Assembly: GCA_029891345.1 (NCBI GenBank)
Contig: CM057009.1
Span: 92,799,416 to 92,863,415 of the forward strand
DNA length: 64,000 nt
Direction of reading: 5' to 3'
DNA from: Dryococelus australis
Taxonomy: Eukaryota; Arthropoda; Insecta; Phasmatodea; Phasmatidae
Shown here: in pieces, positions 3,639 to 38,761 of the stretch
Numbering within the stretch: the stretch's first letter is position 1
Layout of the letters: each line of letters starts with the position of its first letter
Program-made: the position numbers and the translations under genes
Notes under the pieces: generated by a model
Database searches by the model: none
The model's input: only the letters and a program-made list of their open reading frames with translations
Told to the model about the DNA's origin: nothing

Positions 3639-3890
3639 TGGGGCCGCGTGGTGTAGTGGTGTAGACCAGTCTCCTCCCACCAAGGCGAACCTGGTTCGAG
3701 TCCCGGTGGGGCCACCCTCGGATCCTTGCATATGGGAATCATGCTGGCCGATGCCGCTTGTGGGCGGGATTTCTCGGGGATCTCCCGCTTCCACCGCGCC
3801 TGCACTCCGGCGCTGCTCCATGCTCACTTCGCTTCACCCTCATTGATTCTCAAGACCACGATATTAAGAGCCGCCCAGATCCTCCAATTC
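3639..3890 (+). mobile_element. tRNA-derived SINE, family I
   Basis: It begins with a tRNA-like head: an A-box region (TGGTGTAGTGGTGTAGACC) and a B-box (GGTTCGAGTCCC). A body follows with 'catatgggaatc', 'cgatgccgc' and 'cagcgctgctccat'-like segments, and a 3' part near 'cgatattaagagccgcc'. The same head and body recur at 37,482, 42,185, 31,575, 47,968 and 58,688, which establishes the family. The two overlapping ORFs are non-coding shadows of the SINE. Confidence 0.85.
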
Positions 3891-4592
3891 AATCTCCAAC
3901 TATTTATTACTAGGCATTACCGACAAACCTATTTTATATCTGTTTATGTTCGCATTCAGTATTATTTAAATGTAATAATTTGTAGATAAAATATAAGAAA
4001 AATTCAATTTAACCAAAAATAAGGTAATTTTATGTTAACAAACGTACAGTATAAAACTCTAGTGATACATGGCGTATTTAGGAGACAACCAAATATGTTT
4101 TACATAGGATAATTTTCCTAACGTTTGATTAAAAAAGTGTGAAGAAACCGTAAATATACTGTAAAGTTAGAATTAATAGAATTTCGCATGCCTGTAGTTA
4201 TGAGTCGGGACTAGAATTTCGCGAGTACTATCGGTACTCCCTGTAAAAAAAAATACGTTTAAAGATTTCTGTACAAAAAAGAAATCCATTTCTTCGAGGC
4301 TGTTTTGTTCATAAAGACCCAATATTATTTTAATTCGAAGAGAAAGTCACATCAAAACAGGCTTGTTGTAAATAAAAGTTATCTTTAGACTTTGGGGATT
4401 TATATGACCACATTGCAGTACTGTAAAACAAATACATAAACATTCTTTAAGCTGTTTTGTTTACAGTAAAGGAATATTACTTCGTACCAATGGTTACAGT
4501 ATAGCGATAGTAGAGATAGGTTTTCTTCTGACACATACATTTATAAAAAAATAAATTCTGTAGTTACGAAAATGCAACTGAGCGAATGTATA
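3891..4592. other. Intergenic DNA left of the Maverick
   Basis: AT-rich sequence with no ORF, RNA gene or recognised repeat. Its right border is where similarity to the other inverted arm of the large element stops. The six bases next to the proposed element start are TGTATA (4,587-4,592). Confidence 0.5.
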
Positions 4593-6410
4593 AGTAGAAA
4601 TGGCCGAGGGTGTTTCACTGCACTTTTAATTTATCGGATTATCAATTTGATATCAAAGGGTTAATTAAATTTATTGAAAGGGTTAATCCAATTTTTATCC
4701 GATCAAAAATTCTTAATCCGATTAAAATGTCTTAATCTGATATTAATCCGATCGAAAATGGAAAGGGTTAAATTTATTGAAAGGGTTAATAATTTTCTTT
4801 CATTCTTTTTGGGTTGGAGGGGGAGGGGGGGCAGGAGTTCTGGCACGTCCTAACCCTTGGAGCTCTGGCAGTCAATGACCAGAGTGGTGGGTTACAATGT
4901 CTTATATAGGAGTAGAGTTTAGTGTAAGAGTGGGCTAATGCAATTTTTTTTCTAATTTTGAGGTGTATGGAGGGATGTTGGTAATAGATAGGCGAATTTT
5001 ACGAATATATTTAACACACGAGAGAAATTCAGAGTGGTTAAACGATTTCTAAGAGTGGCCTAAGTGTAAATTGTATGTTTTTTGGGGGGATATTGCTCAT
5101 AGGCGGTAGATAGGCGACCTTGAAAGATGCGATTTACATGTTAAACGATCTGTTTTCGGAATACAATTAAACATTAGAGAGTTTCAGAGTGTTCTATACA
5201 TGAATAAATTACACACATCGAATTGGAAATTTGAAACAACTATGTGAATAATAAGTGGAATTACGTGAGTCTTAAATGTAACATGATTCTCGAGCTTAGA
5301 ACAATAATTTACACGCGAGAGAGAATTTTAACTATGTGAATAACACGAGAGACAAATATAATGAACAACTACTATATTTAAACGAAATCCAGCTAGTCGG
5401 TAGGAATAAATAACATGATAAAGTCTGGAGAATGATGTCTTATGGCAAAAAAAACTCTGAACATGATTTAAACCAGACACAATCATGTACCTGAAATATT
5501 AAAACATGTCCATTCGAAGTATGAATGAGTAGCACTTATGTCGAGCTGTGAGATGATACGTGTAGCATATACTATAGGTAACTGTGTTTAAATTACAGTA
5601 AATGTTTATGAAATTCGCTGCAGTTGTTAACACAAACGGAATTTTCATAGACCGAACACAGAAATCAATTATTTATCACAAACACAGTATATCGATTCGA
5701 AAAGAAAAAATCAGTTAACACACGAAAATATATATTTTCCCGATAAAATACTTTTATATTAAATCGCGACTATCACTAGAGATGGTCCATGGTTGAGCTA
5801 ACCCGTGTTTGTAAACCCATCGGCCGCCAAGTGTCTAGAGGTGCAGTGTTTATGAAGGAACTGACAAGTAGCACATCTGTCTTCCACAAGCATTGAAGAA
5901 CGACAGAATATGGCGCCGACTGAGATTGCTGATGTCACTTTTCTCCCTCTACCCCCTCCCTACCCCTTGCCGGAGTGCGACCCCAGGCTTCTCACGATTG
6001 TCAAATGTTTTTGGTAATTTATCAATATGGCGTCATTTGATTAGTTGTGTTCCGATTGGTGGAGACCTGCCTGTCACCCCCTCCCACCCTACCCTGCACC
6101 CCTCAGAACCGATCCGACTCCACAAAGCCAACAACCCCTATGCCCCCTACTACCCCTCGCCAGAGTGAGAGGTCCTGGGGGCCAGTCACCCGTCTGTCCT
6201 CGATTCTTATTATTCGCAACTGATTCAAGATGGCGACAACTATCTAGTTGCATGCACATCGGGAGTAGGGTGCTCATAGGTACCCCCTCCCTCCCTACCC
6301 TCCACCCCTCATTTTTAGAGCTGCTCTGACTCCACAATGACAACCACCCCCTCCCACCTTCACCCATCATAATGGGCCCTTCTCCAGAGAAATGTGTTCC
6401 CTACCACCCA
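4593..6410 (+). repeat. Left terminal inverted repeat of the Maverick
   Basis: It matches, inverted, the sequence at about 20,640-22,477. The outermost 200 bp hold short subterminal repeats (AAGGGTTAA and TTAATCCGAT types, several copies). About 4,790-5,270 is almost identical to the other arm, while 5,280-6,350 is clearly more diverged. The inner part (5,890-6,350) contains imperfect repeats, each with an ATGGCG core followed by a C-rich run. The 90-odd-residue open frames over this stretch are low-complexity artefacts. Confidence 0.88.
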
Positions 6411-8325
6411 TACTCCCGAAGCTCTCTCGCCTTGAAATCCTACATTTCTGAAGACATCTGCTATCGATCGAACCTGGTTTTCGCAAAACCAGTTTTATGC
6501 ATCCCAGCATCAGCCATGAGAATCCTTTTTTGTATGTTTTCGTGAGTTGGCATCCCTGCAGTACCTGTTTCAAGACAACATGCCCTCCTCGCTAGAGTAT
6601 TCAGGACATGTTTTTTCTGAAGTTGATTCCCCCGCTTCACATCGTCGAACCCTCTGAATGCGTACCCCAAGAAATTTCGCCTGTTGTTTCAACCTTACAC
6701 AACATGTTGACCATACGAACAGTGAAAATAAAAATATTTTACAAGCCCTTGAAAGCAAGTTCCCAATATAATCCCCAGATTTAAAATTCAAACAACAACA
6801 AATGTATATTTGAATCAAGCAAACTATGATATGTGAAATCACACAGAAACACTAGACTTGATTTATTTACTTGTTAAAACAGAACTATTTTTTACAAGCC
6901 TTTAAACAAGATATATTTTATTCACTCATTAAGAAATGTTTTCTACAAGTATTCTGACATTAAGAAATGCTTTTACTATCAATTCGATGCATAGGAGAGA
7001 AAAAAATATATTGGGAGAGATTTAGTTGGCTTTTTACATCGATGTCTTGAGAGCCGATGAGGGTGAAACAAGGGGAGAAGATTAGACTAGGGAAAATGGG
7101 AGACATCTCCTATAAAAAATGTTGGCAAGCAACATCGCCTGACCAACATCTAACATGACATCCACACATTGGAAAAAAAAATTGTTTTTGTGCTGTGACC
7201 CATCTGGGGAGGCGACGTGCTAACCAATGTGTTCCCTTTCTTTATGTTTAACCAAAAACTTTAAAACAGCATAAATGTATTCCATGTAACATAAAATGTG
7301 TATATTTTAATTTAGTTGTTATTTTAACTGATTCCGACATAAGTTTAACGAAATATTATGAATACAGCCTGAAATAATGTTTTTCAGAGTTGAAAAATAG
7401 CGATTTCATCATTATTCTTATTTTATTACCAAAAGAGCCAAATTCTTGTAAATTTACTGGAAAATATACTTCTTTTTTTTAACTTGAGTTGAATTTTATT
7501 TATTAAAAAACTAGTTTGAAAATATTATATTTATCTTCTTCTCCAGACATCATCCTGTTGTATCTTGAACATGAACTCTTGTAATTATTTTGCTTCTGTA
7601 TAAAATTAAATATTTAAAACATTTGCTGGACTATGTATGGTGCAGTCGTAGATTGTAGGCAAGGAAGGACAGAGGTCTTTGCTACCTACCTCTGTGAAGG
7701 TATGCGAGGTTCAATTTACATATATTCCCCTGGGGTGTCACAAAAGTTGGCCAATATATATCGTGTTATACTCCAACTTTAAACTTGAATAGCCAGATTG
7801 GATGAAGATTCTCCCAAAATACTAACCTGCTGCCTCGTTTCTTTGCAAAGGTTCATTCATTCATTCATTCAGCTATGTTTGATTTTCTCCATAATTTTTT
7901 TATAATTTTCCTCATCCCTACAAAGTTAGTTTTAATTTAAATGTTTTAAAGGTTTTTGTTAAGTCAAGAAAGCAAGTAAAAAGTCATCCTGCAATTTTAA
8001 ATACAAATCATCAGCTCACCATTACTGATAGACATCTACTCATTTCTCTTCACTACTATTAAACCATCACTCATTTTATATAATATATTATTGAAAAAAG
8101 TTAGTGAAATGAGGTATAAAAATAAATAACAATTCTCGCTATTTGTTAAAAATTTTTTAAAAATTCAGAATCACTTTCAAGATAGAATAAATTATATATC
8201 TTGGCAATAAACATAATACATCACAACCATAAACAAATTAGAAACATTGTTTAGCACTAACTTCTGAAAAATGATACATACCAAAATCGTTAATGTATAT
8301 AACATCACAAATTATGAAATAAATA
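6411..8325. other. Maverick interior, no gene recognised
   Basis: AT-rich DNA without a convincing ORF. A short fragment near 7,045-7,075 ('cttgagagccgatgagggtgaa') is the reversed 3' part of SINE family I. A short (CATT)n run lies near 7,854-7,870. DNA polymerase B would be expected on this side of a Maverick, but no polymerase motif was recognised. Confidence 0.5.
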
Positions 8326-8329
8326 CAAT

Positions 8330-9345
8330 AAATTTATTTTGTTCATGTTATCATTTACATGTATAAGCCAAACAGATTTTTTAAACCAAAAACCTCCATA
8401 TTATATCATTACGATATCATAAGGTTTAAACAGTGAAAAAAAATTACATCATTATATGATTGAAATAATAAAGTTTCTTAATAAACATTCCATTATGAAT
8501 AATTTTTCTTTAAAATCAATTTAAGTGCTTTATAAATTGTTAGAACCTAAAATTTTTCTTTAAAATTTTTATAAATCAATGCATTTTCATTAAAAATTGT
8601 TAAGATATGAAATAAATTTTAATCAATTTGAATGATTTTTCATTAAAATTAATTAATTTTCTTTAAAATTGTTACTAATCAATGAATTTTCTTTAAAAAT
8701 CGTTAAGACTTGAAATATTTTTATCAATTTGAATGATTTTCCTTTAAAATCATTATAAATCAATGAATTTTCATTAAAAATCATTAAGACACGAAAGAAA
8801 TTTTTAGCAATTTAAATGATTTTTCCTTAAAATCAATTAAATGTCTTTATAAATCTTTAGACCTGAATGATTTTTCTTTAAAATCATTAAAAATCAATGA
8901 ATTCTCGTTAAAAATTGTTAAGACTTGAAATTAATTTTTATCAATTTGAATGATTATTTAAAATCAATGAAGTATCTTTAAAAATCATTATAAATCAATG
9001 AGATTTTATTAAATATCATTAGGACTTGAAAGAAATTTTTACCAATTTGAATGATTTTTCTTTAAAATCGTTATAAATCAACGATTTTTCATTATAAATT
9101 GTTACGACATTAAAGAAATGCTTATCAATTTAATGACTTTTCTTTAAAACCAATGAAATTTCTTTATCAATTGTTACACATGAATGATTTTTCTTTATCA
9201 ATTGTTACACATGAATGATTTTTCTTTAAAATCATTACAACTTAATGAAATTAATTTTTAAATCATTACAGCCAAATGATTTTTTAAAATTATTACAAAT
9301 CAATGAATTTTTTATAAATTGTTGGAACTTTATATTTTTAATCAT
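8330..9345. repeat. Degenerate AT-rich tandem array
   Basis: Variants of two alternating phrases, 'aatgatttttctttaaaatcatt' and 'aatcaatgaattttcattaaaaat', recur about a dozen times. They are often spaced by 'gacttgaaagaaatttttatcaattt'. The higher-order period looks like about 80-130 bp but is irregular. Many units are locally palindromic (AAT...ATT). No coding frame runs through it. It lies inside the Maverick between the left arm and the Ser/Thr-rich ORF. Confidence 0.8.
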
Positions 9346-9466
9346 TTAACTGTAAACATTTATGTCGCCCTATTGCAAGTAAAAAGACATTAAAATATTT
9401 TAATAGTGAGAAAATTTGTGAATTTATACCAAAGAAGGAATCCTTTATCACTGAAAATGTGAATTT

Positions 9467-10295
9467 TCAATAAAATTTATATCTAGAATTAAGACCTAAG
9501 CTTAATTTGTGTTTCTTAATTGGAATAACACCTTTTGGTGAAGGAGTTGAAGGAAGTAAGGAGATTGGGATATAAATTATTTCTTGCAGCGACAGATAGA
9601 ATATAGGCGGAGGCAGTGAAATTAATTTATCTCACAGTGTTTCAGGTGACAATATTTCATTAGATATCTGTCTTGAAGCAGGTGATAAAACAAAATTAAA
9701 ATCTAAAAATTTGTCTAATTCCTGCACTAAATTATCATTAATAAATACAGCTTTTGGAGACCTTCAGAGAGGGCTACGTTAAATCTAACAGTTTTCAACA
9801 GGAGCAAATCATGGGTGTTGGCAGATGTTGCGCACCTGTTTTTATTCTTCTTAAGTCTAAAGCTCCAAACTGTGTAAGTCGGAGCACTGTGGTGGACGGT
9901 GCTGTAAACTTTGAAGATATGGATGCAGTGACTGATGGAGCTGTGGACACTCTCTTAGACCTTGGCACCGTGGTGGATGGTGCTACAAACTTGGAAGATG
10001 TGGATGCAGTAGCTGTGGTCACTCTCTTAGACATTGGCACTATGGCAGATGGTGCTACAAACTTGGAAAATGTGGACGCAGTGGCTGATGGTGCTGTGGA
10101 GACACTCTTATATGGTGATAATGATGCCATCACTTGTTGCAATGTGAAGGTAAACTCCTTTTCCTCTAAAGAAGTTAAGAAACCGCTTGCTAAATAATCC
10201 GAACCATTGAATAGTTTATTGAAATACTCCCAATCAAAATCACCAAGCTCTTTGTTAAAATCTTGCGTAGATAAGCCAAGAAAGTAGTCTTCATA
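9467..10295 (-). pseudogene. Ser/Thr/Pro-rich repeat protein, unknown, broken
   Basis: The minus strand is open from 10,295 to a stop at 9,795 (166 residues). Similar sequence resumes in another frame from about 9,760, with a stop near 9,632 and an end at 9,467. The first 55 residues are acidic and aromatic (for example DFDWEYFNKLF). Then come about three imperfect repeats of 24-27 residues containing SKFVAPS, VPRSKRV and STAPSVTAS. The later part is rich in P, S and L. No ATG lies near the upstream end; the frame starts just after a TAG, so it could be entered by a frameshift or a splice. An overlapping plus-strand ORF (9,754-10,197) is also open because the repeat length is near a multiple of three; the minus strand is preferred for its varied upstream residues. 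No family is recognised. Its position inside the Maverick suggests an accessory gene. Confidence 0.45.
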
Positions 10296-12235
10296 CTACC
10301 ATGACATTGCAAAGCGAACCGAACTGACAAACAACTATAAAAAATGGAAGGGGCATAGGGGATGAAGCACTGTTTATAAACATTTCAAATTCCCAGGTAA
10401 AACGTTCGAGAAGCCTGATTCTCCCCTCTAACCAGAAGTCAGAAAATAAAACACCCATTCCCCTCTCTTCCCGCACCCCTGACTTTCAAATATCTTCAAA
10501 GCAGCATCCCCAACCTCGGAGATAAACCTCTCTGCTAAGTTTCTTGCTCGAAGAAATGAATAAAAATTTTTTATCAGTAAAAATAACTTCTGAATTATGA
10601 CAAATAAATAAAGTGAATTTACTAACCCATTAAAAACTATTAGCAACGTATTAGAGATCAGTATATTTAATATAACCATTTATAATTTATAGAAAAAGGT
10701 AATATTATACATATAAAACAAGATATAATCGCTTTTTAAGCTTTTCTAAGACTACTTTAATCTTCTGAAGGAAATATTTTTTTCTTATTTGCAATATATC
10801 TTATCTAAATCAAGAAACGTGATATGATCTAATTTAGTAAATATGTTCCCATTTTCTTAATCTGAATATTAATAATTATATTTATGTTAAACATGTACAG
10901 ATATTTTCTCCATTAATGTGTCCGGACATGTTTCCTATTGGGTAAAAATTCTATTTTACCAGATATTTCCATCTAATTTTTTTATACAGGTTAGTATGGG
11001 GGAGTAAAAACTTGTTGTTGTAAATATCTGTTAATTTTTGTACATGTTTTATGTATTTTTTAATAATGTCTCTATATTTTCCCATGGAATAGAGTTTGCA
11101 AAGTGAATATCAATTTTTCATCAAGTAGAGGACAAAATATTTTGCTCGAGAGATTTAAAACAGCTAGGAAGACATTTTGACCTTGTTATTCTCGATGGTT
11201 GAAAAAATCGTTGACGTGAAAGGCCCTCCCCTCCAGGGATGGGGGTGTCCTTAGTCGCTTCCTTCGTGAAAAGCTAGGCACCGGGCTTGTCTCCAGGATA
11301 TAATAAACCAGAACGCGTTCTGCGGGGGGTTTATTGGACTCAGACTGCCAACCTCTGAAATCTCGGTTTCTTTAGTTGTTACTATTGAAATTTAACCTTG
11401 AAGGAACGGTCACACTGCTAAGACCTCAGATCTCTAAACGTAATGGTTTTTTGAGATATTGGCAAACACGATACTTCTAAAATTTCGAAGCCACTATAAA
11501 TTACAAATTTAATAACATTTAATCAGAAATATTCCATGCAATTTATTTTAAGTTTAAACATCTCTAAAGTTGAGCATACCTACCTTTTTCACATACATGA
11601 ACGAATTTATCTTTTTTTAAATATGTGATTCGTTCTTTATTATTTTTATGTTTACATGATTACAATAATACCTAACCAAGAATCTAACCCAACTTATATT
11701 AACCAAGCCTTATGCGAGAACTTTTCCCTCTTTGTGGAGAAAATATTTTTCGTAGCAAAACAGAACACTTTAGAAAAGGAATAGGGTAAATAAGTTTTAA
11801 GAAAGGAATTCGTTTTACATGTTATTTATTTACAAAAATATATACAAACAATGGGCGATCCACAATTTATGTACAACCTTTTAACACCGAAGTAACATAT
11901 TTAAGCAAGTAGATAAATTTAGCTCCTAAACAAACACAAGTAACTACAGGATGATACAAAACACTACCAAGTAGAACTTGCTCGAAACATTAGCATGCTA
12001 AACAAACATAAGCTGTTAAAAAGATAGTTGCTAAACTATTTATTTTCGAAACAAGGTTCAACTGGCTTACTTCAACATGCTAATAACTTGCTGATATCAA
12101 TTAATGTTTTGATTTATTTACACATGAGCATGTGATTTTATTGTCTTGATGATCCATATTTACAAAGTAGTGGATTACATGCAAGCAAATACTTTTTATA
12201 GTAAATTACACTCTTCCTAAATAACGGCATATGAC
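10296..12235. other. Maverick interior, no recognised gene
   Basis: Mostly AT-rich. A minus-strand frame at 10,428-10,679 has a plausible run (ARNLAERFISEVGDAALKIF) next to the previous gene and might be its upstream part, but this cannot be shown. A small GC-richer patch occurs at 11,215-11,330. I could not find polymerase B motifs here, though strong decay could hide them. Confidence 0.45.
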
Positions 12236-12750
12236 TCAACTAATATCCACAGGTGATTCGGAGGGAGAATCATCATAGTCTGTTTCACCCCAGTCATTTC
12301 TCATTGCCCAACTTAACATTAATATTGAGTTTTCCTCTGCAGAGAAAAATGTTGAATTAGTTCCATATGTTTTATGTAATTGTTTCAACGAAGGGCAATT
12401 GTATACTTTTTGAATATCTATTATTTTCCTGTTATACACACTTTCGAAAACACATTTTTGCTCAACTCCACCTACATATATTTCACAATTATTTATGAAA
12501 TGTTTGCTAATATCTTCAATATTCTCATACTCTATACATCCACTCTCCCATTTTAAACTATGGTGATGATTAGTAACCCATAAATTTGTTTTCTTGTTTT
12601 AGGAGTTAGATATTTCCAGTCAAATGGTGATTTCAAGCTGCTTATAGTAGTTTGTTCTTCCATACCAGTGACAGCTAATTCTTTAATGACACAATTTTTT
12701 CTGCAGACAAATTCTTGCACATTGCAAATCATCTCATCTCAGCCATGGTT
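12236..12750 (-). pseudogene. Conserved invertebrate transposon/Maverick ORF of unknown role
   Basis: Two minus-strand frames joined by one frameshift near 12,600 give about 165 residues. The upstream part has a KELAV segment and a SPFDWKYLTP segment. The downstream part runs unbroken from WVTNHHHSLKWE through EIYVGGVEQK and KVYNCPSLKQLHKTYG to an acidic C-terminus (ETDYDDSPSESP). This spacing of a W-x-T...H-x-L-x-W segment, an IYV-x-G segment and a CP-x-L segment recalls an uncharacterised family common in arthropod and cnidarian genomes, often near mobile elements. That attribution is from memory. It sits 15-30 bp downstream of the major capsid gene on the same strand, so it was probably in the same structural block. 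Function is unknown. Confidence 0.5.
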
Positions 12751-12764
12751 CATCACCTACTGAC

Positions 12765-13880
12765 TCAATTAATTATTTTCACCAGCTTATATCTTACATT
12801 GTAACTTGCTAGTTTGTCTTGAATTGTACGAGCATAAGCTTGCTATTTGCTGAAAATGGTGTATTTGCAATAATTTCAATTTGTGAATCAATCACACCAT
12901 CGGTAATTCTGTCATCTTCCTTGCTGACATCAAACACAAATAATGTTCCTATGGTTTTAAATGATTCGGGTTCTAGGTACAGTAAACAAATTTTGTTATT
13001 TTATGTATCCTAAAACATTGTGTACATATCATACAAAATAAGGAATTCCCCATTGTCAAGTTGATATTTAAATTCACATAGGTGTAAGGTTTACTGTTTA
13101 GATACATTTTAATATTTTTCATATAATAATTATCGAATACTGATTGATCCATTTTAAAATTGTTTTGTCAATTTGTTTCAAAAAAAATGACCACATCTTG
13201 TTTTTTTCCCGACGAAAATTGGGATTTCAAATTCCAAATGACTTTTTGTGATGTTGGTAGTGTTGGAAAATCCTCTAAAGATTACGATCTGAATAGAATG
13301 TCTAGATTCTTCCATTTTTCGATAAATTTTAAAAAATTTACACATTCATGAGTGTTAATTTCAATATACGCCATTAACATTCCACACTGCTTGATTCAAA
13401 TGTTACATCTTCCTCATTATTAGCCGAATAGTACATAGCATTCAAATGTGTATTGCCGAATAGAATAACTACTTCTTGTTTAGCATTTAATATGACATGT
13501 TTGTAGTCTTCAACAAATCCCACGATAAAGAACCATCTCTCAGGAACTGTAATCGATATAGTTCCTGAGAGATGGTTCTTTATCGTGGAAGTAATTCCAA
13601 CATCTTGTGTTTGATCAATTTCCACTCCATTTAGCAGATATGCAATTCTGTCAATTAAATGAAGTATTCCATTTCTTATTATTATTGCAGTTGCTGGATT
13701 ACTTGTATCGGATGTCTTTTTAATTGTTCCTCTAAACCTTAAACTTGATTTCGGTGATAATGTATAAATATCGTGATTTTGTATAGAAATCCTTATTTCC
13801 GAAGGAAACGTGTATGGGCCTGCTCGAAATGGTTCATAACATGTATTTCTGTATTGGTGATTGCATTTTCATAACTAATT
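12765..13880 (-). pseudogene. Major capsid protein, double jelly-roll, broken
   Basis: This is the remnant of the double-jelly-roll major capsid protein of Maverick/Polinton elements, which would build an icosahedral shell. Reading leftward from about 13,840: CYEPFRAGPYTFPSEIRI, then QNHDIYTLSP, LNGVEIDQTQDVGITST, GFVEDYKHVILNAKQE, and further on PTLPTSQKVIW, MYLNSKPYTY and IDSQIEIIAN. The C-terminal end is at a stop at 12,765. These match family landmarks in the right order. There is at least one internal stop after position 13,377, several frameshifts, and a hairpin (13,520-13,588) in place of coding sequence between the GITST and GFVEDY segments. The true start is lost. Short overlapping plus-strand ORFs are shadows. 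Confidence 0.8.
13520..13588. repeat. Perfect 29-bp inverted repeat inside the capsid pseudogene
   Basis: The left arm is 13,520-13,548 and the right arm 13,560-13,588. They are exact reverse complements of 29 bp with an 11-bp spacer. One arm is the normal capsid coding sequence for the residues before GFVEDY; the other is an inverted copy of it. This looks like a local fold-back duplication made during replication or repair, probably with loss of capsid sequence. Confidence 0.95.
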
Positions 13881-13884
13881 GGCT

Positions 13885-14110
13885 CTTCACATTAAGTATG
13901 TCTTCATTTCTTTTAGCACTATATCCTAATTCTTTTAAATACAATTTGTTGCGTCATGTTAACTTCACAGGTATCTTATTTGAAGTGAGAGTTTTATGTT
14001 TGTGTTTACATCTTTTTATATTTTCTTTCTTCGAATCATGTTCCTTAATGACATACTTCTTAAAAGAACCACCTACTTTCCATCCGAATTTACTATTATA
14101 CACAATACCC
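13885..14110 (-). pseudogene. Short Lys-rich ORF between capsid genes
   Basis: The minus strand carries a highly basic stretch: FGWKVGGSFKKYVIKEHDSK, then KRCKHKHKTLTSNKI, then a stop and a frame containing LYLKELGYSAKRNEDIL. The composition resembles small basic proteins or basic tails encoded between capsid genes in Mavericks. It might be a C-terminal extension of the minor capsid gene just upstream (ends 14,157) rather than a separate gene. No specific function can be given. Confidence 0.35.
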
Positions 14111-14156
14111 ATTAAAATTGTGATGCACAATGTAATGCACGTGTTTATATACCTTT

Positions 14157-14750
14157 TTAAAAATGTAAATGAACACTAATTCTTTCATTTCTAAAACTAA
14201 TAAGTTTACAGTCTTGATCGACAATTGTAAGATCCATTTCATCAACATGATTAACTATTACTGGAAGATATATATCAATGTATTAGGTTTTTCAATTATT
14301 TTCTATCCTGGAGCCACAGCACACATGAATTCATGTAGTCTATTTGTCGGTTTTCCATTCAATACTATCATTTATACAACATACATTTACTGACAAAATA
14401 TATACCTGTTTTGACAATACACTCAATTCATTAGCAGGATACAGTCTCCGTTCGTTACCTAACATATTTACAATTAAATTGTCTTCCGAGGAATCTATTT
14501 CAATGTTACAATACATTGCACTAGTTAACATATTTGGATTTCTACGTAATCGGAAATGTACATCTTCAGGTAATGCCACTTCAACGAATATTTCAAGGTC
14601 ATCCAATTCACAAGATCCTACCGGTATCACAATATTGTATGCTTTTCAACAATATTGGCCATAAAGTATTGGTTATGCATATCAATGTTTGGTATGCTGT
14701 TGTACATAACAAATTCTATTAGACTTTTTTGCCATTCTCCATCTCACTCT
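14157..14750 (-). pseudogene. Minor capsid (penton-like) protein, broken
   Basis: Minus-strand pieces in order are EWQKSLIEFVMYNSIPNID, IPVGSCELDDLEIFVEVALP, a middle part open to 14,340, a short HEFMCAVAPG piece in a second frame, and IYLPVIVNHVDEMDLTIVDQ followed by a natural-looking stop at 14,157-14,159. The IP-x-G-S-x-E-x-D-D-x-E landmark and the final VDQD segment are typical of the Polinton minor capsid protein, which forms penton vertices. There are at least three frameshifts and stops. It lies between the protease and the major capsid gene, as expected for a structural block. The penton role is from family knowledge and the assignment from recalled motifs. Confidence 0.65.
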
Positions 14751-14835
14751 ACCCATGGAAATATACTGCATGCAATTGCGATGGATTTCGACTTAATATC
14801 AACATATTTGACATATTACTAATATGTTTTACTAT

Positions 14836-15226
14836 TACAATTACTTATATACCCTATTTATAGCCAAAAAATGTAAACATTAATATCTGCAATTGATTGT
14901 ATTTGGTAATTGTTCCATTTTGCAATAGTATCTGAATAGCTTGTTTTTTTAAATAATTATGTATGTCATTAGGAGGGCGTAAATAGCCGAAACTGTCATA
15001 ATACAATGATTGATTAACTTTTTTATTAATGTGAACCAATGTGTTCTTTCATTTAATTTAGAATCTAAATTAACAATCATACATTCACAAAGATTTGGTT
15101 TTTTTTTGGCAAATCTTCTCTCATATACACACCTCGGAATTAGGGAATATCCAGTTTCTTTACAAATGCATTAATATCTTTGTTTGTTAATGCACATTTT
15201 AGAAGAATATTTAGGACATTCAGCAT
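14836..15226 (-). pseudogene. Adenain/Ulp1-like maturation protease, broken
   Basis: This is a cysteine protease of the adenovirus-protease/Ulp1 class, used by Mavericks to process capsid proteins. Pieces on the minus strand are LTNKDINAFVKKLDIP (about 15,190-15,140), a shifted frame with CECMIVNLDSKLNERTHW that includes the likely catalytic His, YYDSFGYLRPPNDI (the Asp after the YYDSFG-type motif), and the end in two frames. The likely catalytic Cys survives as an NC dipeptide in a shifted frame, followed almost at once by a stop. At least two frameshifts and a nonsense codon make it non-functional. A plausible start is the Met at 15,226. It follows directly on the PLA2-like gene. Confidence 0.7.
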
Positions 15227-15248
15227 TTTTTCCACGTTTGGAGTTTTT

Positions 15249-15718
15249 TCACCCTTGCCCGACTTTATAGGGTTTGAAATACATTCCTTTACCTTTTGAT
15301 TTAACTGCTCTAATTGCCAAAACCCCTCTGGGGATTGACCCAAGAGCTGTTAATGCTGGATATAGGAATGGAATGATTCCTCCTTTCTTTTTTTTCCGTT
15401 TGGTTTTGCATTTTAAGCCCATGCCTCTTTTCACCTTTGGGCTCATAACTTTATCAACATTTCAAGCTCAAAGCTTTTCACCTGTAGATGTAGATGGATT
15501 CTTCCTTAAATTTGCTGCTTTATCGGCTAGAATTGTATCCACTATATGTTTTTCTTTCAAATTGTTTGTTCGATCGTAACCCATATAGTGTTCTTTACAC
15601 ATGTTATCCAAAGAGTTAATTCCTTGATTGTTATGCGCCAAACATTTTGCAAGTTTAGTACCATGTCCTTTACACCAATACACCATGTCCTTTTTTTTAT
15701 ATGTTTAGTATGAGGCAT
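15249..15718 (-). pseudogene. PLA2-like capsid protein with basic C-terminal tail, broken
   Basis: The N-terminal part (15,686-15,471) has a phospholipase-A2-like core with HGTKLAKCLAHNNQGINSLD followed by CKEHYMGYD. In active relatives the catalytic pair after CKEH is His-Asp; here it reads His-Tyr, so the key Asp is lost. The same frame, after two stops near 15,468 and 15,462, continues as a very basic segment, a hydrophobic GIIPFLYPALTALGS-type segment and KGKGMYFKPYKVGQG, ending at 15,249. The two halves therefore belong to one gene. An earlier ATG at 15,718 reaches this frame only by a shift in a run of eight A residues. In related elements such proteins are thought to help membrane passage of the particle. 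Confidence 0.65.
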
Positions 15719-15806
15719 TGTTTTCAATTTAATGCTAGCCTAAATATAGACCTACATTTATAGTTTTACATTAGTATGTTACATAATACGGTGTAAATGT
15801 GTAGAA

Positions 15807-16439
15807 ATGAAGGTTATAAAACTAAATGTACATCTACTGGTAAATGTAAATATGAAAGAAAATGTATTTGAACAGAAACATGGTATTATTTTACCATCAA
15901 ATATATGTTGTATTATAAGCAGTCCTTCTTCATGTGGAAAGACTTGTGTTATTATGTCGCTGTTGGAGCATCCGAATGGACTTAAATTTGAAAACATATA
16001 TGTGTTTTCTAAAACAGTACAACAAGAGAAATATCAACAGCTAGCGATCATTTCATCGTTTATGGAAGGAATGCGAGTTTTCCCTTTTACAAATAAAGAG
16101 GATACTGTGCCTCCGAATGAAGTATTGCCCAATTTCGTATTTATTTTGGACGATGTCTGATGTGATCCACAGGGTGAAATACAGTAATACTTTAGTTTTG
16201 GCCGACATTCAAACATTGATTGTTTTTATCTGTCACAAAGTTAGGCATGCATACCAAAACATAATTGACATGATAATACAAATATGGATAATATGAAACT
16301 GCAACATATTTACAATAATCATGTTTTAGGCAATTTGACAATTACAAAGTTTAAAGGTATGTGTTTTACTGTTGGAACGAAAAATATGGCTTTTGGTGAT
16401 TATACCATTTCCCCTATATACAGGCAGATATACATCTGA
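15807..16439 (+). pseudogene. FtsK/HerA-type genome packaging ATPase, broken
   Basis: Open from ATG 15,807 to a TGA at 16,158. It has a Walker A motif (SSPSSCGKT, residues 40-48; the first Gly of the usual motif is Ser) and a Walker B motif (FVFILDDV, 111-118). After the first TGA the same frame continues with family-like segments (FGRHSNIDCFYLSQS, then LQHIYNNHVLG) through several stops. It then shifts frame to VGTKNMAFGDYTISP and stops at 16,437-16,439. This A32-like ATPase pumps DNA into capsids in Mavericks and related viruses. It is the first plus-strand gene, divergent from the PLA2-like gene across about 90 bp, which probably held a two-way promoter. A minus-strand ORF at 15,779-15,997 is a shadow. 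Confidence 0.8.
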
Positions 16440-16447
16440 GTATTTCA

Positions 16448-17047
16448 ATGTTCGGACATAGTGGTATAAAACAAAATCATTAAAATAGCTGTTTAACCAA
16501 AAATCGCGATGGGAATTGTGATTTGAACGAATATATATTATGTAATATGGGTATGGCTTTGAAAGATAGCAATGTGGCAAATAAACATTATGTGGATGAC
16601 TTAAACACTATTTTGCTAAATGTATTAAAATCACAGTGAAACGATATTCAAGAGAATTAAATAAAGTTAATTGATTTTAATGATAATGTTGAAAAAACAC
16701 GAGTGTAATTGCAAACATTTTAAGCAATATTAGCACTGATTTGCAGAGTAATGAATTTAGAATAGAAGACTGTTTAAATGGATTTAGTAATGATTTTCGA
16801 TATGACAAACATAGATTTTAAAACACAACTTACAGATATCCAAGAACATTTAAGAGTTGTAATTAATGAAATTGTAAATGCTACTATTGCAAAGCAACTT
16901 GAAACAAGAATGGAACAAATAATGCAATATATAATAGATGAATTTATTAAAAAATTGTTTGGTTTAGTTATGCAAACAATTTTGAGAAATCAAAATAATG
17001 ATTTGGAAACACAAATCAATTATTTTATTATTGATTTGAAATATTAA
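16448..17047 (+). pseudogene. Maverick accessory coiled-coil protein, broken
   Basis: It starts ATG 16,448 with MFGHSGIKQNH and after a stop has DGNCDLNEYILCNMGMALKD and NKHYVDDLNTILLNVLKSQ. This combination of an MFG start, an N-x-LCN-type segment and an N-K-x-Y-V/L-D segment is recognised from Maverick accessory ORFs. A frame change leads to ILSNISTDLQSNEFRIED and then to the open stretch 16,778-17,047, which has heptad-like hydrophobic spacing (TQLTDIQEHLRVVINEI). It is probably a coiled-coil structural or fibre-like protein; the role is inferred. It begins 8 bp after the ATPase remnant ends. Confidence 0.55.
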
Positions 17048-17184
17048 ACTTTAACAAAATTAGATGTTGTTTTAAGTAAATTCGATAAGACTTTAAAGCT
17101 CAAAGTAATCGGCTATTACATCAGTTTGAAAGAAGTCTAAAATCATATATAAATAGATTCAATTTAATGTAATATAATAAAAAC

Positions 17185-17910
17185 ATGCCTGACTCTGCTT
17201 CGGAATTACATAACGTTATATCAGACGTGAAAGAGAAATATTTACAAGTCAAATGAGCTCGTATGGAACAGGATGTTTTAAACGAAGAAATATTTAAACC
17301 TGTTACCAGTAGAATGGATACATTGCATTCTGTGTTGAATAAACCTAAAGAAGAAGCTTTGGAAATTAAAAAGGAAAATGAAGCTTCAAACAAGAAAAGC
17401 AAACCCTTTCTCAATCAACACTAAGTTACTTTAAGTACATGTAAGTTTGGGAGATCTACATTTAGTGTTTATCGACATGAAAACAATTGGTTCCTGGGTG
17501 AATCGTTAGTTAAATTTCTGCCTGAAAATAAAATCAAAATATGTGATTACGTAACTGATGTCAGTGAAGGATTATTTGAATTATTGTTTAAAAACTTTCC
17601 AAATGGATATTCTGACATCGATTTGCAGAAATATGAAGAACTTATTTGTCGAACGAATGTTAATATTAGTTCATGAGATGAAACCCATCCAAAAATACAT
17701 TTAATAGGAGATAGAGTAGGAAGTGGAATATCTAAAGATGAAATTGAAAACTGCTTTTCACCTGTATATTGGAATAAACCTAATGGATTGTTTGTGAAAT
17801 TAAAACTTCTGATCACTTCGAGAGAGTCTGGAAATAATTCACATACAAACAAAATTGTTTATATTATTGAATAGTTAACAGAAGATGGTTATATTACAAA
17901 TGAAGTTTAG
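17185..17910 (+). pseudogene. Maverick accessory ORF next to integrase, four internal stops
   Basis: One frame runs from ATG 17,185 to the stop at 17,908-17,910 without a frameshift. It is interrupted by four stops: TGA near 17,254, TAA near 17,431, TGA near 17,674 and TAG near 17,871. The first third is Lys/Glu-rich and probably coiled. The middle has ENNWFLGESLVKFLPENKI and GLFELLFKNFPNGYSDIDLQ. The end has VYWNKPNGLFVKLKLLITS and NSHTNKIVYIIE. These landmarks belong to a well-conserved uncharacterised protein commonly just upstream of Maverick integrases. The 3' end overlaps the integrase ATG by 26 bp. Minus-strand ORFs here are shadows. Function is unknown. Confidence 0.65.
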
Positions 17911-18789
17911 TAAGATTGCTCAAGAGCATCATGCTCCTGCAAGGATAAGATATCCTAGAAAAAGAGTTACAGCTCATGGTTTAAATGATATTTTTCAAGC
18001 TGATTTGTGGGAAATGACATTGCTTTCAAAATACAATAAAGGGTAGAAGTATATTTTAACCATAATAGACGTTCATTGAAAATATGGTTGGGGTATACCT
18101 TTGAAAAACAAAACTGGGAAACAGGTTACCAATGCAATGAAGATAGTTTTCAAAGTGAGAACACCCAATTTGCTCCAAGCAGACAGAGAGTCTGAATTTT
18201 TTTCTGCACCATTCCGGAAACTAATTACCAAATATAGTATTGATCACTGCACAGTTTATTCAGAGCTTAAAGCGAGTGTTCTGGAATGTTACAACAAATC
18301 GTTTAAGCAGTTAATACATAAACATTTCCCATCAAGAGGGACTTACAAATGGGGTGACATTTTGCCTGAAATAGTTATCAAGATGGCTCCTAATGTATTT
18401 ACAGATAATGGTTTATTGAAAGCTTTTTATAATAATGTTAAAGTCTTTGAGGAAAGGAAACCAAAGTACAAAGTTGGCGAATTAATATGTATCTCGAAGC
18501 AGAAAGTGATCTTTGAAAAAAAAATTTATGGTGAATTGCTCTTTTGAAATATTTAAAATTATTTCAATTAGGCAAACACATCCCAGAATGTATTACATAG
18601 AAACATATTATGGAGAACCAATAAAATGTGGATTTCATGAACATGATATGCAAAAAAATCAGTTCTCCAAAAGAATATTTGGTTGATAAAATCACTAAAA
18701 GGAAGAAAGATATGTCCTTGGTTCGATAGAGAGAATTCTCAAAAGCACATGACTCCTGGGTTAAGAATCAAGATCTTAAAAGATTGTAA
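17885..18789 (+). pseudogene. Retroviral-type (rve) integrase with chromodomain-like tail, broken
   Basis: This is the DDE integrase that inserts Maverick DNA. From ATG 17,885 one frame holds PRKRVTAHGLNDIFQADLWE (first catalytic Asp), a stop at 18,044, the IIDV segment, a stop at 18,077, then an open stretch of 148 residues with LQADRESEFF (second Asp) and ASVLECYNKSFKQLI (catalytic Glu), ending at 18,547. The triad is therefore still present. The C-terminal part continues in another frame (YYIETYYGEPIKCGFHEHD) and then a third, where EYLVDKITKRKK and EFSKAHDSWVKNQDL resemble a chromodomain, ending at 18,789. At least four disabling changes are visible. Confidence 0.85.
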
Positions 18790-20639
18790 TACATTGTTTG
18801 TAAAAATTTCTGAACTAAATGAAATATTTTTAATTATATTTGATGTGTTTTTTTTTTAATTTAATAAACCTTTGGATGGGGATTAGATGTACAATTTATT
18901 GTGGAATCAATCTCCTTGTTTATTGTATTAATGATGGAGCAATAATCCTATTTGATTAAATCCTTTCCTTTGTGATGTCATTAATCATTAGTCTATCGGA
19001 ATACATTTCTGGGTTTCATAATTGTTTGTGCTAGGTTTTATTTCTTTGCTTGTAATTATACAGTTCTTGGAAATTGATTCGTTGTAAGAGAGCAAAATAC
19101 TGTTCCCCATGCCAAAAATCTTTTTGACGGTGTGTCCTAGGACGTAATTTTTTGATGGTGTAGAAATTTGACAGTTCAGAGTTTCATAAATTTTTACACT
19201 GTCGAGTATATCACATTATTTTTTTATTTAAAGTTTTTTTAATACTATGCTTAAAATTTAAATGCGTTATTGTAAACATAGTCCGCTCACTTTTTACAAA
19301 ACACAAAAGCTCTGTGCTGGGAAAAACAAGCGAGGCAAGACAAGTCGCAAAGCACGGTGTTCAGTGGCCGTGAGCTGCAGCCAGGGCAACGTGCAACATG
19401 GAGTGAAGTTTGGTGGGTGTGACAGGGGGTGGAGGGAAAGGGGAAGTTCTCCCTCCTAGTCCTATTGTATAGGTGGCAGGGGCGAGCATCAGACTCTGAG
19501 TGAAGGGAAAGTTGTTGGGTGGATGGAAACCGGCGAAAATCAATAGTGGTGCGTGGCGTGAGCTGCAGCATCTATCTGAAGCAATCCCTCACCCGACGGG
19601 TCGCAAGCATATCTCCCAACTGTGAGCGACCTAGTCTGGCCTGCCTGCACAAAGTTCGTTCACTGCTCCAATTCCCACATGCGATTCACCCTCATTGGCT
19701 CTTGAGATCAAAGTTTCGCCATCTCCCGCATACACACAATTCTCGGCTATTCGTTAACTGGTATTGTACATGAGGTTTTCAAACGACTCAAACCCATATC
19801 TTTTGTGAAATCACGTCGCTGTTGTCGACTCCCTTTCCTAAATAAATTTTGGAACTGAGTTTTTACTTGACATAAAATAACACATTACCGAGATTATATT
19901 TTCCTATTTGATAGTACTCTAAAAAATTCTGAGCTAGGAAAAACTATATGTAAAATACATATTTTTATTTGTTAGACGAATAAATATACATTGGATTGAA
20001 ACTATAACAACTTTTCCAAGATGGTTAACATATGTTTTCAATGGTTAAAAATAAATTTTTTTCTTGAGTATGTGCTTACAACGTAATAATTACAACTTGA
20101 ACAAAAATATGTGTTTGAAAAATGGTGTTCTTTCAATGTTTAAAATCTTAGCGAGTTAAAACTATATTTTATAATGGTATTGGTATGAAAATTAAAAAGT
20201 GATCATTTTAAACATAAATAAGATTGCTGGAAACTGGAATAAAGATTGCTGGAAAATGGGGAAAAAATAGTTTTGTGGGAAATGGTTCATAATTTAAATT
20301 GAATTTATTGTGTGTTAAAAACATTTGGAATGTATTTCTTAGAGATGAGGACAAACAAACTTTTATCGGCGGAAGATGTGAATTTTTTTTAAAATTTGCC
20401 GAGAACGTGCTAGGCTCTTGTCTTGCGAAACGTAGGTGGAGGCTTCAGTGTCTGAGCAAAAATAATAGTTGCTACAGGAGAGGGTAAATAGACCCGGTCA
20501 GTTCAAGATCCAGTGCTACCCCCCTAGGGAAACCATTGTTTGGGCCTTGAAGCAAGCTCCGTTAATAACTGAGGAAGCGCTCTGGGGTTAAGAGCCAACA
20601 AGCTGAAGCAGGGAGCCAACACTAGAAAAGATGCTTTCT
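18790..20639. other. Maverick interior between integrase and right arm
   Basis: AT-rich at first, then a GC-richer patch at about 19,310-19,760 with short open frames on both strands that look non-coding, then AT-rich again. A 62-codon plus-strand frame at 20,299-20,487 has no recognised motif. No additional element gene is recognised. The right inverted arm starts losing similarity at about 20,640. Confidence 0.45.
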
Positions 20640-22477
20640 GTATAGTGTAGTGGGGGAGGGGTTCGTAGCCTTTTTTTGGAGAACTCGCTTTTCACGCAAA
20701 GACAGCTTCATGTGTTAGGGGAAGGGGTGGCTGGCATTGTGGAGTCGGTGCAGCTTCTGAAGATCACGGGTGGAGGGAGGGGGTGCCTATGAGCGCCCTG
20801 CTGCCGATGTGCACACAATTAGGCATTTGTCGCCATATTGAATCGGTTGCGAAAAATGAGAATCTAGGACAGATGGGTGACGTAACCCAGGACCTCGCAC
20901 TCTGGCGAGGGGTAGTAGGAGGCATAGGGGTGGTTAGATCCGTGGAGTCGGGCTGGTTCTGAATGGTGCAGGGTAGGGTGAAAGGGGTAGGCAGGCAGGT
21001 TTCCTCAGATCGGAATGCAACTAATCAGTTGATGCCATATATAGAAATTGCCAAAATCATTTGATGATAGCAGGCAGCCCTGGGTCGCACTAGGGCAAAG
21101 GGGAGGGTGCAGGAAGCGAAGTGACCTCAGCAATCCCAGTCGGCGCCATATTCTGTTGTTCTTGAACGCTTATGGAAGACAGACGTACTCCTTGTCAGTT
21201 CCTTCATAAACACTGCACCTCTAGACACTTGGCGGCCGACGAGCTTATGAATGTAGGTAGCTCAACTATAGACCATCTCTAGTGATAGTCGCGATTTAAT
21301 ATGAAAGTATTTTATCTGGAAAATATATATTTTCGTGTGTTAACTAATTTTTTTCTTTTCGGATCGAAATACTGAGTTTGTTATAGTAATTGATTTCTGT
21401 GTTCGGCCTACGGAAATACCATTTGTGTTAACAACTGCAGTGAATTTCATAAACATTTACTGTAATTTAAACACAGTTACCTGTCGAATGTGCTACGTAT
21501 ATCAACTCACATTTCGACATAAGTGCTACTCAATCATACTTCGAGTGGACTTAATTTAATATTTCAGGTATGTGATTGTGTCTGGTTTATATTGTATTCA
21601 GTGTTTTTTTTTGCTGTAAGGTATCATTCTCCATTCTGAAAAGTGTTATTTATTCCTACTGACTAGCTGGATTTCGTTTAAATATAGTAGTTGTTTTTTA
21701 TACTTTTCACTCATGTTATTCGCGTAGTTAAAATACTAGCTCTCGTGTAATTTATATTTCTAAGCTCGAGACTCACATTATGTTTCAGACTCACGTAATT
21801 CCACTTATTATTCACATAGTTGTTTCAAATTTCCAATTCGATGTGTGTAATTTATTCATGTATAGAACACTCTGAAACTCTCTAATGTTTAATTGTATTC
21901 CGAAAACAGATCGTTTAACATGTAAATCGCATCTTTCAAGGTCGCCTATCTACCGCCTATGAGCAATATCCCCCCAAAAAACATACAATTTACACTTAGG
22001 CCACTCTTAGAAATCGTTTAACCACTCTGAATTTCTCTCGTGTGTTAAATATATTCGTAAAATTCGCCTATCTACTACCAACATCCCTCCATACACCTCA
22101 AAATTAGAAAAAAAATTGCATTAGCCCACTCTTACACTAAACTCTACTCCTATATAAGACATTGTAACCCACCACTCTGGTCATTGACTGCCAGAGCTCC
22201 AAGGCTTGGGACGTGCCAGAACTCCTGCCCCCCTCCCCCTCCAACCCAAAAAGAATGAAAGAAAATTATTAACCCTTTCAATAAATTTAACCCTTTCCAT
22301 TTTCGATCGGATTAATATCAGATTAAGACATTTTAATCGTATTAAGAATTTTTGATCGTATTAAGATCGGATTAAAATTGGATTAACCCTTTCAATCAAT
22401 TTAATTAACCCTTTGATATCAGATTGATAATCCGATAAATCAAAAGTGAAGTGAAAGCTCTCCCGGCTACTACTACT
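20640..22477 (-). repeat. Right terminal inverted repeat of the Maverick
   Basis: It is the reverse complement of 4,593-6,410. The outer 0.45 kb (about 21,790-22,270) matches the left arm with only a few differences. The inner kilobase is about 85% similar by eye, with indels. The outermost end reads, on the minus strand, AGTAGTAGTAGCCGGGAG. GCCAT-type motifs (the other strand of ATGGC) recur at about 20,830, 21,035 and 21,145. The following hexamer CGTGTA (22,478-22,483) resembles TGTATA before the left arm. Confidence 0.88.
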
Positions 22478-22624
22478 CGTGTAGTTCTCTTCAAGACGTT
22501 TAATGTCATTCTGAAGTGCAGTGATTCTCCAAATTACTAACATCTTTTACTCCCAACAAGTGATTTATTCTGGCCCATTTTACTACCTGAGAGAATCTGC
22601 TTATGAAAAGTAACCAAAAACTAA

Positions 22625-31037: not shown

Positions 31038-31574
31038 TCATATCTCTACTAATTTTCTCAGGAGCACGAAGAGATAGAATATGTCTTTTGCAAAATTCTG
31101 ATAGACAATCCTTACTTGCCATTTTTTTTTCGTTGTAGAATCTGTGCCCAACACCATTTTAATCGGCAAATCCCAAAGCCAACCTCGTGAGTTCTTTCTT
31201 TGTAAATCCAAAACGTCATTGGTCCAAATCTCTGCAATGAGCTGCAAGTTCTTTCTCCGTTTGATCAGTAAATATCCAATTGAATCTTCCGAGAGATTTG
31301 GAAACCGTGCCATGTAAAATAAATAATAAATAATTAACACGATACTAAAAACAACTACTTGAAAGATAATATCCAAATCGCAGTGCTTGAAGTTGAAAGG
31401 ATAGTTGCACTGTTGCCAAAATTTGATGATGAATAAAACGAAATTGTAACAATAATGAAACGAAAATAGTACGCGAGAGTGACCGAGAAAATCTTTTAAT
31501 GACCATAAGCCTAAGCGTCCTCTACTTTCCCTAAAATTGCAGTTTATTTGAGTGAGTTGGGCAGCTCTCAACAT
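31038..31574 (-). CDS. Hypothetical ORF, 178 codons, doubtful
   Basis: This is the longest uninterrupted frame of the window outside the Maverick. The first 50 residues are of ordinary composition, the middle is hydrophobic (QVVVFSIVLIIYYLFYMARF), and the rest includes KIGYLLI-like basic stretches with no recognised motif. There is no clear promoter or neighbour. It ends about 190 bp upstream of the pogo-like remnant on the same strand and could be part of that element's decayed 5' region. Chance is a realistic explanation in AT-rich DNA. Confidence 0.2.
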   Translation of the reverse strand: MLRAAQLTQINCNFRESRGRLGLWSLKDFLGHSRVLFSFHYCYNFVLFIIKFWQQCNYPFNFKHCDLDIIFQVVVFSIVLIIYYLFYMARFPNLSEDSIGYLLIKRRKNLQLIAEIWTNDVLDLQRKNSRGWLWDLPIKMVLGTDSTTKKKWQVRIVYQNFAKDIFYLFVLLRKLVEI

Positions 31575-31770
31575 CTATGGTCTTGAGAGGCGTTGAGGAG
31601 AATTGAGGCGAATATGGAGCAGCGCTGGAATGGAACGGCGGGAGAAACGGGAGACCCCGAGAAAACCTACTGATCAGTGGCATCGCTCGGCACGATTCCC
31701 GTATGCGAAAAACTGGCAGTGACCCCGAACGGGAATCGAAGCCTGATCGACTTGGTGGGAGGTGGCATCT
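31575..31770 (-). mobile_element. SINE family I, reversed copy
   Basis: On the minus strand it carries the family I body: 'gtcttgag' end, 'gagcagcgctgga' (complement of the 'cagcgctgctcc' block), 'cgcatacgggaatc'-like block and a degraded head near 31,745. The B-box is recognisable as the complement of 'gggaatcgaagcc'. The tRNA-like 5' end is damaged. Confidence 0.7.
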
Positions 31771-36693: not shown

Positions 36694-37083
36694 TGGCTAT
36701 TCACGGTAAAATGAGCATTTTTGAAAGCCCTGTTTAAGATCTACTTATATGCACGTTGTGTATTATTACGCCTTACGTAAAATTAATATTGCCATGGATC
36801 TCATCACTTCATTCATGCGTCGGTCAAGTGAAACTGTGAAATTATTAGAAAATTAAATATTTTACAAATCGGCTCATTTTCACACCTCAGTGCATAAAAA
36901 AAAAAACAGAAAGCCAAAGAAATAATTTAAGTTATAACAAATGGTTACCTAACACTCCCCATCCATCGCTACCAAATTTACTGGGCGCGTGTCACTCAGT
37001 GCGCCCGTTAAAATATATGCAGGTTGGAGCAGTGACTTTTCTCTAAGATTGATTTCAAAATGCTCACTTTATCGTGAACCACC
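36694..37083 (+). mobile_element. MITE family A, copy 1
   Basis: The left end reads TTGGCTATTCACGGTAAAAT. The right end, read in reverse, begins GGTGGTTCACGATAAAGTG, giving imperfect terminal inverted repeats of about 25 bp. The internal sequence aligns by eye with the copies at 45,631 and 49,121 through blocks 'ttaagatctact', 'cattcatgcgtcggtcaagtgaaactgtgaa' and 'actgggcgcgtgtcactcagtgcgcc'. There is no ORF. Confidence 0.8.
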
Positions 37084-37481
37084 TTTACCTGCCACCAGTG
37101 CATCAAACGAAAGTGTGTGTGTGTTTTTTTTAATATTTTTTTTAAAGCAATGTCGGACAAATCTTTAGCAACATAGAGTGCTCCATATTGATTGAACATG
37201 TGGATGATTTGTTTTTCATCCACGACAACATAACACATGTTGCGACATATGAAAATTAAATTGTAAACTGCCATGAGAAATTGTATACGTAACAGTAGTG
37301 ACATTACTATTTATTTTATTTTATTGTCCCATTTGTTTGCTTCAAGGGAAACTATATGATAAATGTACAAAGATTAGCTTTTCTTATTACCTGTATGTTA
37401 CGTTCATCATTATCAAATAAACGAAGCGGCATTAATGTGACTTTCATTAATAAGAATATACAAGATCGCTAAGTGGTTTAT

Positions 37482-38757: not shown

Positions 38758-38761
38758 TTAT

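Follow-up and report, generated by a model that had tools for sequence, protein, structure and literature searches.

We have identified, in the genome of Dryococelus australis, a multi-copy family of Maverick/Polinton-type elements with no recognizable protein-primed DNA polymerase (PolB) in the copies read. One copy occupies positions 4587-22483 of the window, by which we mean the whole stretch of 64,000 nucleotides that was analyzed (G000:C17:92799416-92863415; genome of 3,415,067,245 bases in 646 contigs). With a probability of about 0.7, this copy is a single old insertion of a PolB-less family whose polymerase would have been supplied in trans by a helper. The initial annotation had described the element as nearly complete. 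That description has to be withdrawn, as PolB is missing from the window copy and from four other copies read at the same place; it was also absent from the genes that the annotation had listed.

A family of paired arms with a collinear interior

The window element is bounded by two inverted arms. When the genome was searched with the left arm, 40 of 7,136 candidates were scored, which yielded 60 matches spread over 40 places. Among the matches listed, 16 of the 40 scored places form eight facing pairs. The pair in the window spans 17.9 kb. The others measure 18.1 kb (C16), 17.5 kb (C7), 17.1 kb (C2b, on C2 at 258.2 Mb), 16.5 kb (C2a, on C2 at 109.0 Mb), 16.0 kb (C15), 15.4 kb (C6) and 7.2 kb (C12). 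Five of these were read inside in part (12.6 kb of C16, 8.4 kb of C15 and 6.0 kb each of C6, C7 and C2b), and all five are collinear with the window element in blocks of 73-89% identity, lower in a tandem array described below. The collinearity is interrupted by repeat insertions, minor rearrangements and absent segments; the 17.7-19.7 kb stretch, for instance, which is most of the integrase stretch, is missing from C6. C2a and C12 are known from their arms only, with the interior unread. The earlier proposal that arms and genes form one insertion is upheld by this collinearity in five of five pairs.

For the remaining 24 of the 40 arm places no partner was scored, as might be expected if the arms belonged to a different transposon, yet two of them (C12 at 43.6 Mb and C9 at 45.2 Mb) carry the 10.7-12.2 kb segment of the element within 7 kb. 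A search with that segment gave 65 matches at 40 places (40 of 3,140 candidates scored), and six of the 40 places listed lie no more than 3 kb from a capsid place. The converse question, whether the gene block occurs without these arms, was addressed with a capsid piece (292 matches, 150 of 11,352 candidates scored, 150 rows listed). Most capsid places are without a scored arm, and only 2 of the 150 listed have one nearby, but the lists are too thin for this count to be interpreted: the capsid places take in just two of the eight arm pairs (window and C7).

No PolB found in the shared interior

PolB would be expected between the capsid gene and the left arm. This segment (6356..12235, 5.9 kb) is alike among copies in blocks of 73-87%, lower in the array. 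Family searches were run on window pieces between stops, each piece separately. A six-frame Pfam scan of 6356-12235 gave no PolB, its sole line being MDY2_C at 0.013, below the cut-off, and a scan of 16161-20718 in the two plus frames searched there gave none either. The genome also contains PolB loci, and open reading frames (ORFs) of 20 of them were then compared with 6356-12235; nothing fell below E = 0.007, and the matches obtained under relaxed settings (E 0.007-0.08) were scattered and short. Against the whole window at E <= 1e-4, these ORFs found only a protease piece that adjoins one query PolB. In tblastn searches of other copies they found the protease beside that one query PolB in C16, and nothing in C7 and C2b. 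As a control, each of the 20 PolB loci was found by ORFs of the others. A PolB hidden in the window was considered and rejected, the PolB ORFs having matched only protease or other Maverick pieces of loci L026 and L029 and dispersed repeats. PolB of the adintovirus type was likewise not found in the window segment.

The PolB-less segment is common to the window copy, C16, C7 and C2b over nearly its whole length and to C15 over 2.4 kb; the lack of PolB therefore predates the insertion of these five copies, which lie on five contigs. An ordinary full Maverick that lost PolB in the window copy alone, after insertion, would be a familiar event, as old insertions often lose genes and 96% of vertebrate Maverick loci are eroded according to the available portion of one survey (PMC8097293). 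With four other insertions carrying the same PolB-less segment, this explanation is barely credible, and the contradiction holds unless those four are duplications of the window copy.

A replication protein of the family's own might instead reside in 6.4-12.2 kb, either as a PolB already decayed in the founder when the family began to spread or as an unrelated protein changed beyond recognition. With its 5.9 kb, the segment offers room for such a gene and is common to the five copies read there, and third-position tests within it are weak because the known genes themselves show little signal among copies. Besides the window scan, three frames of the C16 copy gave only DDE_3 at 0.011, below the cut-off and from an inserted mariner-type element, and the segment shows no codon periodicity in comparisons with C16 (p = 0.56), C7 (0.81) or C2b (0.90). 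Part of the segment is an AT-rich tandem array at 8459-9347, with units of about 31, 81-134 and 318 bp, which C16, C7 and C2b have in the corresponding position. Open frames on both strands at 9745..10295 run over a 72-bp tandem repeat (9939-10092), and no family was recognized in them. We regard a replication protein in this segment as unlikely, though serious enough to be kept in view.

PolB is common in the genome, but it lies elsewhere than in the arm-bearing copies examined. A family search with PF03175 gave 54 matches (91 of 6,288 candidates scored) and made PolB appear rare; that impression was discarded when a PolB protein piece gave at least 150 matches (150 of 1,135 candidates scored). 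Together, the 150 places of the protein query and 47 of the family search make 197 PolB places, with six common to both lists. Among the matches listed, none of the 150 capsid places has a PolB place within 50 kb, with 0.87 expected by chance, and the scored arm places are all more than 50 kb away from any listed PolB place.

Terminal arms, target sites and separate insertions

The initial annotation was correct in placing inverted arms of about 1.8 kb at both ends. The left arm (4593..6355, plus strand) has the outer end AGTAGAAATGGCC, and the right arm (20719..22477, minus strand), read inward as its reverse complement, has the outer end AGTAGTAGTAGCC. In blastn, 4593-6355 and the reverse complement of 20719-22477 align with 87.9% identity over 1,778 columns (E = 0), with 181 mismatches and 34 gap positions. 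A repeat search recovers both arms as seven ungapped blocks that are 79-97% complementary. Long terminal inverted repeats, a Maverick/Polinton feature, are thus present at 1.76 kb, and the left arm belongs to the multi-copy arm family described above. An end motif of the AGT/AG type is also present, the window element having AGTAGTAG at its right end and AGTAGA at its left. A motif search found ends of the AGTAGTAG or AGTAGTAA type on both sides of C15, C6 and C7 and on the left side of C12, and AGTAGT ends are seen in other copies. Similarity between arms holds in the inner part but is poor over the terminal 165-280 bp in several copies (C16, C7, C2b and C2a); the window stretches concerned are 4593-4800 and 22270-22477, and the pattern is as if ends had been swapped between subfamilies.

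Candidate target-site duplications flank the window element, TGTATA on the left (4587..4592) and CGTGTA on the right (22478..22483), both given on the plus strand. They match at four of six bases, which is weak alone; both mismatches are transitions. Copy ends were set by motif search, except for the window (blastn) and the right end of C16 (by eye), and six copies could be compared, C12 and C2a being left out because at least one end was not located there. The six bases flanking each copy agree at 6/6 positions in C6, 5 in C15, 5 in C7, 4 in the window copy, 3 in C2b and 3 in C16. In 30 cross-copy comparisons, at most three of six bases were alike.

These flanks bear on whether the other copies arose from one old insertion by segmental duplication, in which case the shared lack of PolB would be one event and no spreading would have occurred. 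The copies are indeed alike along the stretches read, at the block identities given above. Host flanks of the six copies (147-400 bases a side) nevertheless gave no between-copy match at E <= 0.01, the sole match being one side of C15 against its other side, and the six flanking bases match better within copies than across them. The arms also pair within copies: in a tree of five copies, both arms of each copy are sisters in five of five cases, with bootstrap values of 92-100. The copies therefore entered separately, and we consider segmental duplication very improbable.

Within-copy Kimura two-parameter (K2P) distances of the inner arms are 0.112 in C16, 0.126 in the window copy, 0.135 in C15, 0.185 in C2b and 0.191 in C7. 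If arms were alike at entry, the entries were spread over time. The insect substitution rate is near 3e-9 per site per year, which would put the window insertion, as an order of magnitude, at some 20 million years ago.

Gene content and decay

The genes within the arms are laid out divergently from about 15.74 kb, as had been described, with the capsid, protease and PLA2-like pieces on the minus strand and the ATPase and integrase pieces on the plus strand. The gene set first proposed stands unevenly: the capsid is above the Pfam cut-off, integrase and PLA2 are below it, and the ATPase, protease and minor capsid assignments come from a motif, relatives and position.

The broken gene for a double jelly-roll major capsid protein lies at 12236..13868 (minus strand) and is collinear with locus L040, its part at 12236-12738 being tentative. 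The piece at 13374-13868 matches PF21738 at E = 3.1e-14, above the cut-off, followed by 12973-13167 at E = 3.5e-4, below it, and 12809-13000 at a marginal E = 0.039; a PDB search with the window capsid piece gave nothing useful. A probable minor capsid piece (14340..14645, minus strand) is tentative, with no Pfam match and with homologues in the corresponding position of L029 and L040. Pieces of a probable adenovirus-type cysteine protease lie at 14854..15170 (minus strand). They have no Pfam match in the window, Peptidase_C5 being found in pieces of the C16 copy and L029 (E = 0.027 and 0.030, both below the cut-off), and a three-piece protease profile searched against PDB matched only S273R (0.13) and adenain (1.0). 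A short basic protein piece at 15249..15461 (minus strand), open and possibly core/pX-like, which is our presumption, shows a third-position excess against L040 (36/70 against 18/70 and 16/70). The PLA2-like domain piece (15468..15704, minus strand) matches PF08398 at E = 0.0033, below the cut-off.

On the plus strand, the pieces at 15750..16296 probably derive from an A32-like packaging ATPase. They contain SPSSCGKT (GPSSCGKT in C16), which we take to be of Walker A shape, and have homologues in L029, L040 and L042. They match no Pfam family, so that the assignment draws on the Walker A shape and synteny, and a PDB search with the ATPase alignment returned mostly GTPase P-loops. Unassigned pieces at 16778..17424 (plus strand) are also present in C16. 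The pieces of a retrovirus-like (rve) integrase lie at 17425..18547 (plus strand), with homologues in L029; 18080-18547 matches rve at E = 0.0017 and the corresponding C16 piece at 5.7e-6, both below the curated cut-off. The region between integrase and right arm (18700..20718) is present in C16 and partly in C15 and C6. A PHROGs search of window pieces gave nothing below 0.07.

The genes are broken, as the initial annotation had stated. In the window copy, C16, C15 and C6, 25 frameshift-length gaps were counted across the capsid, minor capsid, protease, core, PLA2 and ATPase pieces; this count excludes nine gaps seen only in L040 and one private gap whose length is divisible by three. Twenty-one are private to one copy (14 gaps and 7 insertions), three are one-base gaps common to two or three copies, and one is common to one copy and L040. 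Most genes therefore look to have been open when the copies entered. Frameshifts need caution because the assembly is likely a long-read one with residual indels, and residual long-read indel errors are possible in the D. australis assembly according to the part of its description available (PMC10268593).

Fixed differences to L040 fall on codon positions at 55, 55 and 88, a third-position excess, and singletons (110, 111 and 133) and the comparison with C6 (112, 106 and 135) lean mildly the same way. In sliding codon tests the integrase stretch of C15 had p = 0.04, and the other family-copy comparisons lay at 0.31-0.90; for L040 the result was 0 of 300 shuffles.

Other repeats of the window were noted. 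The mariner-type element that interrupts the C16 copy also interrupts L040, and it occurs in the window at 50381-50998 (DDE_3 at 0.011 in L043); it was probably active after the insertion of C16 and L040. A dispersed repeat of about 200 bp has four copies, 70-77% alike and on both strands, at 3640-3877, 31557-31762, 37483-37718 and 42185-42397. The right half of the window holds a repeat family of about 430-470 bp (36695-37090, 45627-46057 and 49117-49543) and, near it, a further family of about 430-470 bp (38757-39216, 46352-46824 and 48309-48754).

The contig holding the window, C17 (326.6 Mb), is the fourth largest among those seen and may be the X chromosome. The published genome is of 3.42 Gb with 17 major scaffolds, of which Scaffold_4 was taken as X, as far as the accessible text of that paper goes (PMC10268593).

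PolB loci elsewhere in the genome

One locus, L029 (C1 at 271.1 Mb), holds integrase, ATPase, PLA2, protease, minor capsid and PolB, and was considered as a PolB-bearing sister of the window element. PolB homology in L029 starts abruptly at 5153, right after the minor capsid piece, and the PolB copies L018 and L022 are alike for about 800 bp further upstream of that point, with no capsid-module query matching them. On these two copies, L029 was rejected as a sister and is best read as a junction of two elements. Adjoining it are L040, a closer relative of the window element with 68-78% DNA identity in blocks, and L041, in which more pieces of PolB and of Mavericks occur. C1:271.097-271.124 Mb thus holds, side by side, at least three fragments related to Mavericks (L029, L040 and L041) and two different kinds of PolB, which suggests nested or clustered insertions.

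The PolB loci fall into at least two tblastn groups, L009-L017, L019-L021 and L023 in one and L018, L022 and L024-L028 in the other. Ten stretches of 9.5 kb around PolB places (L030-L039) held none of the window's virion genes in searches by tblastn at 1e-3, the only method applied there.

Comparison with known elements

Vertebrate Mavericks commonly start with (AGT)2 and have PolB in their core set; when intact, they measure 12.7-24.6 kb, carry arms of 46-1,447 bp and show 6-bp duplications, as given in the available part of PMC8097293. The window element is like them in its size, its (AGT)2 end motif and the apparent 6-bp duplications of some copies. Like theirs, its integrase and capsid genes, together with those of a probable ATPase and a probable protease, form two modules; the modules of a cane toad Maverick also point apart (PMC8097293, same part). 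The window element is unlike them in lacking PolB, in arms that at 1.76 kb exceed the reported range, and in having the integrase beside the ATPase, whereas it lies beside the capsid module in the vertebrate elements (PMC8097293, as excerpted). With Group II (insect) Mavericks it shares a probable insect host, the rve integrase and the capsid set (PMC10328495, in excerpt). The Maverick groups are separated on PolB in the accessible part of that study (PMC10328495), and because PolB is absent here, the window element cannot be placed among them.

Loss of a gene module has a precedent in nine Polintons without capsid genes, which are also without protease and ATPase (PMC4028283, in the portion available). 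The window family is the reverse case, keeping those genes and lacking the polymerase.

As for viruses, searches of viral contigs for relatives returned 9 and 41 pattern stretches, with none confirmed. Adintoviruses are animal viruses that share integrase, PolB and capsid genes with Mavericks. The window element differs from them in lacking PolB, a distinction made by description and not by sequences. In the literature, mostly its open-access part, we found no polymerase-lacking or helper-dependent animal Polinton family. The family is Maverick-like in ends, integrase and capsid yet lacks the polymerase, and so it is not filed as an autonomous Maverick/Polinton.

Discussion

Since the family has no PolB, we infer that another PolB of the same genome copied it. 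Linear DNA of the element, produced by copying or by excision, would have been integrated by an rve integrase, either the element's own or a related one; such integrases make staggered insertions of this kind. Protein-primed PolB copies linear DNA from its ends, and replication by the PolB of another element would also make the arms alike at each entry. Later host mutation may then have broken the genes, mostly after entry. In a more specific and quite doubtful form, Maverick functions would be split between a family with integrase and virion genes but no polymerase and a PolB family without these virion genes through which it spread, as a helper-satellite pair.

Several points weigh against a PolB-less family served in trans. 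The action of a helper on these arms is itself inferred, and the query set would overlook PolBs of a third group, should one exist that differs from the 20 loci. Two short PolB-query matches occur in C15 (21 residues at 4e-4 and 28 residues at 7e-4) and were taken as chance. A PolB-bearing sister could be missed, as the lists are thin (two of eight arm pairs in the capsid list, six places shared by the PolB lists), and L029 could be an older arrangement rather than a junction. K2P distances put a copy's own arms nearest to each other in only three of five copies (window, C15 and C16), whereas in C2b and C7 the left arm has a slightly smaller distance to that of C15 (0.162 and 0.180). Two of six copies lack a duplication (three of six bases alike), and for two pairs at least one end could not be read. 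Finally, the differences that two of four copies have in common are distributed over the codon positions as 10, 16 and 12. They show no third-position excess and so lend no support to selection on the genes during the family's spread, although these 38 sites are few and include parallel changes.

Conclusions

Polintons are called self-synthesizing because they bring along their own polymerase. If our reading is true, a PolB-less family that keeps its virion and integration genes shows that this dependence on an own polymerase can break. The polymerase would then be shareable between elements, and satellite-like lifestyles would arise inside animal genomes.

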